DNA of 24,666 bases. Origin: a virus. A model generated the notes under the pieces. That model did not search any database and was not told where the DNA came from. It saw nothing but the letters and a program-made list of their open reading frames with translations. Of the stretch, positions 10,390-13,149 are shown in pieces. The stretch is taken from positions 1 to 24,666 of the IMG/VR virus record IMGVR_UViG_3300025928_000032; one strand, 5' to 3'. Position 1 is the stretch's first letter, and every line of letters begins with the position of its first letter. A program made the position numbers and the translations under genes.

Positions 10390-10788
10390 TCAGCTGGTGC
10401 GTTCGACGACGCCGACGCGGCGGGCGGTCTTCTCCGAGGCGTGTGCGAGGTCGCGGATGTAGAAGGTGCGGTCGGGCAGGTCCGGGTCGCTGATCGAGGT
10501 GGTGACGAGGACCTCGTCGTCGGGTTGCAGGCCGGTCACCGTGATCGGCAGGTGCACCTCGAGGCGGACCATCAGCAGGTAGGCCTCGCCGGCGTCCTGC
10601 TGCTGCGCCTGCATGGCCTGCTGCTGGATCCGGCACTTGCCCTGGTAGAGGGTCTCGTACGTCGGGGTGATCTCGCCGGTGTTCGGGTCGGTGGTCTCGT
10701 CGCCGGTGGGCCGCCGGATGGTGCAGGTGTCCTGCATGCGGACCTCGGCCATGGCGCGGCCGCGGGCGAGCACGTCGTCGCGGAACAT
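10390..10788 (-). CDS. DUF6093-like head-closure protein
   Basis: A 132-residue protein; the ATG at 10786-10788 overlaps the preceding stop by one base (TGATG), the same junction type as at 1842 and 13650. It reads MFRDDVLARGRAMAEVRMQD then TCTIRRPTGDETTDPNTG and LYQGKCRIQ, a signature of the DUF6093 family in actinophages: 'DTCTIRRPTG...DPxTG...YxGKCRIQ'. The second half is a beta barrel-like stretch (YLLMVRLEVHLPITVTG, TFYIRDLAHASEKTARR). Family members sit in head-completion modules, and the neighbours here (fibre-like protein before, gp10-like after) agree. A head-closure role is inferred by analogy with HK97 and SPP1 stopper proteins. Confidence 0.85.
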   Translation of the reverse strand: MFRDDVLARGRAMAEVRMQDTCTIRRPTGDETTDPNTGEITPTYETLYQGKCRIQQQAMQAQQQDAGEAYLLMVRLEVHLPITVTGLQPDDEVLVTTSISDPDLPDRTFYIRDLAHASEKTARRVGVVERTS

Positions 10789-11438
10789 CAGATCGCGGTG
10801 AGGTCGAGGGTCAGCGCGTTGATGGCGACGGTGAGCTGGCCCTGGCTGGCGAACGTCTCCGGGACGACCTTCTCGAAGTAGCCTTCGCCGCCACCGACCG
10901 CGGTCAGGTCGACCGCGGTGCCGCCGCTGGTGGTGCTGACCTTGAAGGTGTCGGTCGCGGCGTTGACGACGTAGTAGACGGTGCCTTCGGAGACGCCGGT
11001 CGGCAGAGCGGTGCCGAAGGAGTTGAAGAGCATCACCCGGTCGCCGTTGGCCAGGCCGTGGCCGGGGCTGAGGAACTGATCGTTGGTCAGGGTGGTGTCG
11101 ACGCTGAAGAACCCGCGGACGGTGCCGTTGATCGGAGCGTAACCGCGGTAGTTGTTCGTGTTGCCGGTGGCGGCGTTGAAGAAGCAGAAGAAGCCGTAGG
11201 TGCCCGGGGGAACGTCGAAGGTCAGCGCGCCGCTGTTCTGCTTGATCTCGGCGGCGGCCGCGGACCAGGTGACGGCCTGGCGGGCGTACGCCGGGCTGCC
11301 GCCGGTGGCCTCCGTGCCGGTGGCGTTGGTGCCGGTGCCCGGGTCGGTGAGCTGCCACACGGCGACGTGCGTGATCTGCGTGTTCGACTCGTCGAGGGCG
11401 TCGAGCATCGCGTTCTTCGCCGGGGTGTTGAACGGCAT
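10788..11438 (-). CDS. Tail-fibre-like virion protein in the connector module
   Basis: A 216-residue protein with ATG behind GAGGAG. It opens MPFNTPAKNAMLDALDESN and continues THVAVWQLTDPG, then GGSPAYARQAVTWSAAAAE, the pattern of a family annotated as 'phage tail fiber protein' in actinophages (N-terminal helix, then 'EvtGG.PAYaR.av.W'). Residues about 115-190 resemble a short repeat of fibre folds (NDQFLSPGHGLANGDRVM, GTVYYVVNAATDTFKVS), a motif found in many phage fibre and spike proteins where a value is 'reached' through beta strands. It lies between the 408-residue protein and the DUF6093-like gene, so it may decorate the head or neck and not the tail. Confidence 0.75.
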   Translation of the reverse strand: MPFNTPAKNAMLDALDESNTQITHVAVWQLTDPGTGTNATGTEATGGSPAYARQAVTWSAAAAEIKQNSGALTFDVPPGTYGFFCFFNAATGNTNNYRGYAPINGTVRGFFSVDTTLTNDQFLSPGHGLANGDRVMLFNSFGTALPTGVSEGTVYYVVNAATDTFKVSTTSGGTAVDLTAVGGGEGYFEKVVPETFASQGQLTVAINALTLDLTAI

Positions 11439-11448
11439 CGGTGTCTCC

Positions 11449-12675
11449 TCAGGGCCGGTAGATCACACCGGTGAACGGGCGGATGATGGTGCCGTGTGCC
11501 GGCCGCGTCACCAGGCGGCGGCCACGGCCGTAGGCGAGGACGACCGCACTGCATCGGCCGCTTACCGATCGCGTCGCGCCGACCTGGTCGGCGAACCCGG
11601 ATGCGGTTGGCGCAGTGACAGCCCGGCCCGTCGCGGCGACGCGCTTGGTGCTGGCTGATCGGCTATACGAGGCGGCGGATGATCGCGCACTGACCGAGGT
11701 CTGGTGCTTTGCAGCTGCGCCGACCGCGGCTACTGCTGTGGTGACCGCGAAAGACGGTGCGACCCGGGATACCGCGGATCGGATGACCGCACCGGCGATG
11801 CAACGGGCGGTAACGGAGCGCGCGGAACCGGATGCGACGGCGATGGCCGCACCTGCGGTAACGCCGACCCCTGGTGTCTTCTTGGCGGCGGCCGATACCC
11901 CGCTCACCGCAGCCGCCGCACGCACCGCGGCCGGTGTCACGTGCTTGGCCGCCGACCGGGCGATCGCCGCGGCTGAGGGGCTAACGCTGACCCTGCTGGC
12001 CTTCCGGGCGACCGAGGCGACAGACGCTGCCGCGACGCACCGCGCTGCAGCCCGGACGACCTTGACCGCGAGGGATTTGATGGTCGCCGCAGCGGTGTTC
12101 ATTCCGGCACCGGCCACCGCGCTGCTTGTCACGCGCCGGACCGGGCCGATGAAGTAGCCGTTCGAGTTGAACGTCTTGGTCGGGTAGGCGGTGGTCGACC
12201 CGTCGATGAACCGGCCGTTGTTCATCGTGCCGAGCGCGGTGGTCGCGCCGTCGGCGACACCGGTGATGCCGTTGTTGGTCAGCGAGAATCCGGACCAGTA
12301 GGCGCCGGTCGCCGCGTACCGGCCGGAGCTGGTACGTATGCCGAACACGTAGGTTTTGGCCGGGTCGGGGACGAACGACGTCACCGAGGTCAACGGCAGC
12401 GTGTTGTACGCGCTCGGGGTCAGGGTTCCGGCTGCCACAACATCGGTGGTGGCGATCAGAGTGCCGGTGCCGGTCTCCGCGGGGCTGTCGTCGGCGGTCG
12501 CTTCCCAGACCACGCCCTGGTAGTTGCCGATCGGGGTGTCCGCCGCCCAGAACTGCACGCCGACGACCGGGATGGTGTCGGCGAACGTGATCGTGGTGCC
12601 GAGGGTGATGCTCTGGCCTTCGGAGACGTTGGTCAGGGCCGGCGTCTGGGTGGTGTACAGCGTCTGGTCCGCCAT
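11449..12675 (-). CDS. DUF4082-like protein with long Ala/Val/Ser/Arg repeat tail
   Basis: A 408-residue protein with ATG at 12673-12675 and GGGGAG four bases upstream. Residues 1-150 resemble the DUF4082 fold: TITFADTIPVVGVQFWAAD, GNYQGVVWEAT, GTLIATT, then KTYVFGIRTSSGRYAATGA. Residues about 150-180 read like a short linker with NSNGYFIGPVRRV. Residues about 185-375 are low-complexity and made of roughly 19-21-residue degenerate repeats built on V-[ST]-x-R-x-x-A-A, for example SVTARCIAGAVIR, SVSARSSAASYSR and SVSGRCSAVVLAY. The repeats use unusually mixed synonymous Ala and Ser codons (GCT, GCA, GCG, GCC). The gene interrupts the connector region, where only small adaptor proteins are normal. 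A virion decoration or host-contact role is a guess. Confidence 0.78.
   Translation of the reverse strand: MADQTLYTTQTPALTNVSEGQSITLGTTITFADTIPVVGVQFWAADTPIGNYQGVVWEATADDSPAETGTGTLIATTDVVAAGTLTPSAYNTLPLTSVTSFVPDPAKTYVFGIRTSSGRYAATGAYWSGFSLTNNGITGVADGATTALGTMNNGRFIDGSTTAYPTKTFNSNGYFIGPVRRVTSSAVAGAGMNTAAATIKSLAVKVVRAAARCVAAASVASVARKASRVSVSPSAAAIARSAAKHVTPAAVRAAAAVSGVSAAAKKTPGVGVTAGAAIAVASGSARSVTARCIAGAVIRSAVSRVAPSFAVTTAVAAVGAAAKHQTSVSARSSAASYSRSASTKRVAATGRAVTAPTASGFADQVGATRSVSGRCSAVVLAYGRGRRLVTRPAHGTIIRPFTGVIYRP
11520..12120 (-). repeat. Degenerate tandem protein repeat, about 9-10 units of 19-21 residues
   Basis: Inside the 408-residue gene the encoded protein cycles through a pattern of one or two basic residues, V-[ST], a small residue, often R-C or R-S, then an Ala-rich run. 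Units visible include RVSVSPSAAAIARSAA, HVTPAAVRAAAAVSG, GVGVTAGAAIAVAS, SVTARCIAGAVIRSA and SVSARSSAASYSRSA. The DNA is much less repetitive than the protein because codons vary. Boundaries are approximate. Confidence 0.6.
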
Positions 12676-12711: not shown

Positions 12712-13149
12712 TCAGCAGTACGAGCCGGTCGGCGGCCCCACGTGCTTCAGCCGCGGGAACGCCGGGTCGGGCTGGCCGGCGGGGCGGATGGTGAAGGCGC
12801 CGCTGGAGCGGCCGAGCACGCTGTCGATGCGGTCCTTCTCGGCGTCGGTGAGCGCGGCGTCGCCGAACGTCTCGGTGGCGTACGTGGCGGACTCGCTGTA
12901 GTCGTCGATCTGCGAGGACCGCTGCCGGACGCCGTCGGGGTTGAGCACGACCCGTTTCGCGGCGGCCAGCGCGACACCCTTGAGCATCAGGAAGTCGATG
13001 TCGCTGAGCTGGTCGTAGCGGGCTGGTCCGGCGTAGAGCCGGATCTCCGCGGTGGCCAGGTTCCGGGCCAGTTCGGCGGTGGCGCCATCGAACTCGGGAA
13101 CCTGCAGGTAGGAGACGAACTCGTCGAGGGAGAACAGGTCGATGGCCAC
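12712..13149 (-). CDS. Head-tail connector (gp6-like adaptor)
   Basis: A 145-residue protein with GTG start and GAGGAG six bases upstream. It opens MAIDLFSLDEFVSYLQVPEF, followed by helices ATAELARNLATAEIRLYAG and a run with LMLKGVALAAAKRVVLNPDG. The 'sL.eF..yL.v...d.a.A.l....At..Ir.yaG' arrangement is that of the HK97 gp6 / SPP1 gp15-type adaptor that binds the portal and starts the neck. The C-terminal part (DSVLGRSSGAFTIRPAG) is a loop and arm. Position after the capsid and linker genes is the usual one. Confidence rests on pattern and position together. Confidence 0.82.
   Translation of the reverse strand: MAIDLFSLDEFVSYLQVPEFDGATAELARNLATAEIRLYAGPARYDQLSDIDFLMLKGVALAAAKRVVLNPDGVRQRSSQIDDYSESATYATETFGDAALTDAEKDRIDSVLGRSSGAFTIRPAGQPDPAFPRLKHVGPPTGSYC

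Follow-up and report, generated by a model that had tools for sequence, protein, structure and literature searches.

A candidate neck-attached adhesin with a 20-residue repeat stalk beside a Gp80-like gene in a viral genome

Three genes of Alishewanella phage LSH1 are reported to form a module: gp35 gives a match to the GP4 fibril, and gp34 has a payload domain adjoining a stretch for which beta-helix predictions were poor (PMC13243795). The authors of that study suggested that the poorly predicted region of gp34 may hold a repetitive motif, proposed a working model of anchor, fibril and payload, and named Alishewanella phage Slicko01 as holding a homologue (PMC13243795). The GP4 family is represented in Pfam by PF23140 (Gp80, “Podophage GP4 fiber I protein gp80”), for which a structure is available (PDB 8jou), and a 15-fold collar has been described for DEV and GP4 (PMC10925440). 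The neck fibre of cyanophage A-1(L) comprises an anchor, a repeated shaft and a distal carbohydrate-binding module that showed no host binding (PMC10966104).

The locus described here lies in a virus record of 24,666 bases, analysed over its whole length and henceforth referred to as the window. It encodes a 408-aa protein and, beside it, a 216-aa Gp80-like partner. LSH1 gp34-gp35-gp36 and Slicko01 have the same arrangement, in which the payload precedes a region that resisted confident AlphaFold modelling and a GP4-fibril-like protein is encoded alongside. The payloads differ, being a beta-helix lyase-like domain in LSH1 and DUF4082 in the window, and the LSH1 module includes an extra Ig-like gene and lies after the lysis genes, whereas the window module lies in the neck block. 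GP4 gp80, a small beta protein through which an adhesin is attached to the virion, belongs to the same PHROG family as the 216-aa partner, which is longer and carries an additional beta module behind its Gp80-like domain. Unlike podophage GP4, the window phage probably infects an actinobacterial host; it also has a tail tube gene and a large ORF of tape-measure size, and its repeat protein has no sequence match in the PDB. The likeness to A-1(L) would be one of layout, a fibre at the neck with an anchor and a repeated shaft, the shaft being a chain of gp81 proteins in A-1(L) and 20-residue repeats in the window. Since the distal module of A-1(L) does not bind the host, the tip of the window protein need not be the primary receptor binder.

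We regard it as fairly probable that the 408-aa protein is an adhesin attached at the neck, that its tip is exchangeable and its stalk made of beta repeats, and that the Gp80-like protein joins it to the virion. The appendage would be built at the head-tail neck. The N-terminal DUF4082 domain would be its exchangeable payload, probably binding a host surface glycan or polymer, with the glycan itself a guess. The C-terminal 20-residue repeats would form a beta-structured stalk ending in a conserved RP-motif tail, the RP motif would be the docking end of the adhesin, and the 216-aa protein would connect the stalk to the neck, much as the GP4 fibril (PDB 8jou) links its adhesin to the tail collar. 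We infer the presence of the 408-aa protein in the virion, its position at the neck, its attaching end and the ligand of its tip. At the level of sequence, an adhesin is suggested by the DUF4082 match, the period of 20 residues, the exchange of N-terminal domains on a conserved tail, the tight Gp80-like linkage and recurrence in many unrelated phages. Mycobacteriophages such as LeBron have this gene pair amid their minor tail genes, which may limit how widely the neck position applies.

The 408-aa gene and its neighbours

The gene encoding the 408-aa protein occupies positions 11449–12675 of the window and is read from an ATG at 12675 on the minus strand. All window features for which coordinates are given below lie on that strand too. 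The ORF call agreed exactly with the coordinates in the initial annotation. The gene order at the locus is head-tail adaptor Ad1 (12712–13149; PHROG 137, E 1.9e-10), the 408-aa gene, the 216-aa gene (10788–11438), a gene for a DUF6093 head-closure-like protein (10390–10770; PF19586, E 3.3e-36) and an HK97-gp10-like gene. The window capsid protein is of the Phage_cap_E type and is 68% identical to those of Arthrobacter phages such as RadFad. In RadFad, the closest cultured relative examined, the adaptor and stopper genes are directly adjacent with no intervening gene, in agreement with the earlier remark that nothing this long is expected between the connector and closure genes. The window phage also encodes its own lambda-D-like decoration protein (PF02924).

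The DUF4082-like N-terminus that had been proposed from the letters of the DNA was recovered as a PF13313 match spanning residues 10–176 (12148–12648; E 1.8e-12). The score of 47.8 bits lies above the curated Pfam gathering cut-off of 28.4, and the match covers model positions 2–143 of 143. DUF4082 is a family without assigned function. Searches for close relatives returned none among INPHARED phages or GTDB genomes, and DUF4082 gave a single weak match across named phage records (gene 1 of Arthrobacter phage Wildwest, 27%). A search of open papers found none on DUF4082 in phages.

The repeat tail and its reading frame

The domain is followed by approximately nine 20-residue repeats (residues ~205–386; 11518–12063), supported by the alignment of relatives, the period scores and the beta alternation, with a unit resembling K-x-V-x-x-T-G-R-x-V-A-A. 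The protein then ends in an RP-rich motif, RPxxG..RPFxGxxYRP (residues 387–408; 11452–11517), which is conserved in the alignment of relatives (A1). A short second repeat of eight residues, RPxSGxT, is found at the C-terminus in two copies in the window protein and in three copies in relatives L010 and L012. Further carriers and relatives came from IMG/VR searches that used the tail or the neighbouring 216-aa protein as query; the carriers' tails are 40–48% identical to that of the window.

In the window protein alone, lag 20 scored highest (z 2.9) and lag 40 second (z 2.7), both below the all-lag shuffle level. The tails of four relatives gave z values of 6.0, 7.6, 5.4 and 6.1 at lag 20, compared to a 99.9% shuffle maximum of 4.1–4.8, while a fifth (L012) gave z 4.0 at lag 40 and 3.3 at lag 20. 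A period of 20 is suggestive from the window sequence itself and is established by homology with these relatives. The degenerate repeat of the initial annotation is thereby upheld, weak in the window protein alone and strong in the relatives sharing its tail. The length variation that it had proposed looking for in related phages was also observed, as homologue tails align with gains or losses of whole 20-residue units.

Small residues alternate at even lags 2, 4, 6 and 8 (z +2.1, +2.8, +3.6 and +3.4, pooled from related and hence non-independent sequences) with negative values at odd lags, which points to a beta-strand-like tail. Of five AlphaFold models of the window tail, only the best (pLDDT 55–78) had a beta-solenoid-like fold, drawn with two strands per unit; the other four were poor, and the tail of relative L007 had a mean pLDDT of 31. 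In the proposed reading the tail would be a beta-structured stalk with about two strands per unit. Searches of PDB sequences with the tail or with the DUF4082 part returned nothing significant. Foldseek of the model against the PDB gave weak beta-sandwich matches only, including CBM32 and CBM35 (E ~0.06–0.1), and against viral models no coherent answer. The guess that the tip binds a glycan draws on none of these matches.

The tail is strongly basic, with 31 K+R and one acidic residue, and all six tails carry about 30 K+R per 225 residues and are almost without acidic residues. This composition would suit an internal protein whose K/R-rich tail binds packaged DNA or is ejected. Such a role is very unlikely, as the alternating pattern fits a beta-sheet rather than a disordered tail, DUF4082 and the domains that replace it resemble surface domains, and other period-20 partners are not basic, the repeats of Slicko01 being S/T/N/D-rich.

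The initial annotation had also described mixed alanine codons between repeats and read them as a protein pattern kept while the DNA is kept different. Mixed codons were indeed observed. Alanine is encoded in the tail by GCG, GCC, GCA and GCT at fractions of.40,.37,.16 and.08, compared to.27,.63,.04 and.06 in neighbouring genes, and repeats at the DNA level are almost absent. The second part of the claim was not supported. The same codon was used at 0.381 of repeat-equivalent positions compared to 0.334 after synonymous shuffling (P(<=obs) 0.94), and selection for DNA divergence between repeats was unsupported by such shuffling in the window and in five relatives. The codon mixing is a general drop of GC3 in the tail rather than repeat-by-repeat avoidance. 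GC3 is 0.77 in the tail (11452–12135) compared to ~0.93 in neighbouring genes, and it is lower in the tail than in the N-terminal part in L002, L007 and L015 as well, the three relatives in which the comparison can be made within one gene. Across the window genome, higher GC at positions 1 and 2 weakly accompanies lower GC3 (r -0.30), though the tail itself sits outside most of the span covered by this trend.

The three codon positions of the tail are unusually alike in GC content (GC1/GC2/GC3 0.66/0.71/0.77) and ORFs exist on the antisense strand, as could be expected if the repeat tail were an artefact of reading frame or base composition in a GC-rich genome, with, for example, the antisense frame as the real gene. 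This explanation is extremely improbable. In every pair of tails, synonymous divergence is larger than non-synonymous (pN/pS 0.43–0.71), and the antisense frame is broken in four of the six homologues; on these grounds antisense coding of the tail was rejected. Additionally, the tail is fused in frame to different domain types, and the period in the relatives is exactly 20.

The Gp80-like partner and its period-20 neighbours

The N-terminal domain of the 216-aa protein belongs to PHROG 240 (E 1.4e-8), and the protein is 67–93% identical among the relatives compared. By itself, the window protein gave no match to Pfam Gp80 (PF23140) at threshold and none to 8jou_a. Four members of alignment A6 match Pfam Gp80, and the relatives L019, L020 and Magritte gp26 pass the cut-off. 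The A6 profile, which includes closer relatives, matches 8jou_a with E 3e-8; BcepMigl gp56 matches 8jou_a with E 2.5e-59. Judged by these profile matches, the 216-aa partner is distantly homologous to the GP4 fibre protein. L019 and L020, two contigs found via DUF4082, carry that domain together with a dissimilar repeat of period 20 (z 9.4 and 4.6), directly next to a Gp80-like gene. The Gp80-like protein of phiM5 is present in the particle proteome.

A small beta module within the 216-aa protein (10887–11093) resembles T-x-D-x-F-x-S-P-x-H-G-L-x-x-G-D and was identified by matches to PHROGs 7765, 4711 and 9370. The same PHROGs also match an insert (residues ~162–245) in the SU10-like major capsid protein of L002 (L002:3003–4184). 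Going by these shared matches, the module is a mobile domain common to fibre and capsid proteins. Three further loci have a gene for an LtfC-like beta-sandwich protein (PF23926; L028:3604–3948, L030:3679–4011 and L034:3656–3958) ahead of the Gp80-like gene, which makes each of them a three-gene module like LSH1 gp34–36.

Thirty-five loci with a Gp80-like gene were collected, and chosen ORFs of at least 90 aa were scored for repeat period. An ORF no more than 700 bases away was counted as a neighbour, and it was scored positive when its best period was exactly 20 with z of at least 5. A period-20 neighbour was present at 25 of the 35 loci, among which the window locus is included and itself falls below z 5, compared to none of 254 more distant ORFs. 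For the 28 loci outside the set from which the idea was formed, the figure was 20, and collapsing these to seven broad clusters left 4/7 (Fisher P 0.009). Several of the remaining loci have neighbours with periods of 10, 21 or 22. The period-20 members include the minor tail proteins LeBron gp21, Bernardo gp33 and CELFI gp23, and Magritte gp27, a GDPD-domain protein. Among 12 further cultured phages, mostly nearer GP4, the adjacent gene had its best lag at 20 in five (Lietuvens, PVJ1, phiM5, BcepMigl and Itty13; z 3.9–5.2), and several large phages in this group gave no signal in the adjacent gene.

The repeats themselves are very different in sequence, for example RTATGSGTGSAS in L044–L049 and STFDVSDIASVL in Slicko01, and no Pfam family covers them. 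What the loci share is a structural period, and these differences leave common descent of the repeat unsupported. A search of open papers found none on a 20-residue repeat beside Gp80.

In Slicko01, an 1843-aa protein has a period of 20 with z 12.1, the sole strongly periodic ORF among the 108 scored, and its gene lies ~330 bases from a PHROG 240 gene. From its size and context, it is the putative LSH1 gp34 homologue. The period-20 link to LSH1 gp34 would run through this homologue, and it offers a testable answer to the published puzzle on phage LSH1. There is a slightly better than even chance that a repeat of exactly 20 residues, free in sequence, is the general stalk partner of Gp80-fold connectors across tailed phages of many hosts, that it is the “unpredictable” domain of LSH1, and that it defines a plug-in appendage with swappable tips. 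The occurrence of repeat proteins beside one small fibre protein in many unrelated phages suggests that such a plug-in design is common to phage appendages. As a simple search rule, a 20-residue period beside a Gp80-like gene flags host-interaction proteins that are missed by sequence search and structure prediction.

Exchange of domains among carriers

The N-terminal partner of the tail is DUF4082 in the window and one of two other beta-like domain types in L002, L007 and L015. In L002 and L007 the tail is fused to a domain marked by SFGFT..SGxLLVVV, and in L015 to a possible divergent relative of that domain (24% identity). In L010 and L012 the tail is a separate ORF, and an SFGFT-type domain is encoded by its own gene nearby. 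The presence of these parts fused in some phages and as separate neighbouring genes in others would be a classic sign of parts that work together. The comparison shows that the layout is reversed in this family, with a variable N-terminal tip and a conserved C-terminal stalk and end motif.

In carriers, the tail gene always lies directly before the conserved 216-aa gene. L011 has the 216-aa gene without a tail gene directly before it, and the same slot (L011:1946–5401) holds ORFs that we take to resemble sugar-nucleotide enzymes of the epimerase type. Strict adjacency, together with the occasional occurrence of the tail as a separate ORF, would be compatible with an assembly or chaperone protein that serves the 216-aa neighbour and stays outside the virion. 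This is quite unlikely, given that the length of the protein, its repeats and its exchange of domains are what one expects of a structural appendage, and that annotation places related neighbours among minor tail or virion-associated proteins.

The major capsid proteins of the carriers belong to different families (Phage_cap_E, SU10 and GP7), which indicates that the cassette moves as a unit. The same observation bears on whether the 408-aa protein is a head decoration that coats the capsid surface, with its basic repeat stalk contacting the capsid or cell wall. Such a decoration would agree with the position of the gene within the head-to-connector block, with the basic tail and with the “head protein” label of PHROG 240. 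That label is probably misleading, as PHROG 240 genes lie among the minor tail genes of LeBron (gp22, L022), Bernardo and CELFI (L023 and L024) and the family matches the GP4 tail fibril. The window phage already has its lambda-D-like decoration gene, and because the cassette travels between phages of different capsid Pfam families, an appendage of the neck or tail is more likely than a place on the head surface. Overall, a head decoration is unlikely. The initial annotation had listed a head or neck decoration, a fibre and a host-interacting repeat as possible roles; gene context, through domain swapping and the GP4-family partner, favours a fibre or host-interacting role, and the head-surface option has become the less likely one.

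The separate repeat ORFs at L010:5262–5987 and L012:3027–3806 are in frame with a preceding 158-aa ORF and start one codon past its TGA, the context of which is almost identical in both. Programmed stop readthrough was considered and set aside, since a plausible ribosome site and an adjacent GTG make re-initiation the simpler explanation; either could occur at this TGA. The same neck slot of L010 (L010:2071–5258) contains extra small genes of 99, 226, 119, 232 and 158 aa, and a relative of the 119-aa gene recurs before the fused gene in L015.
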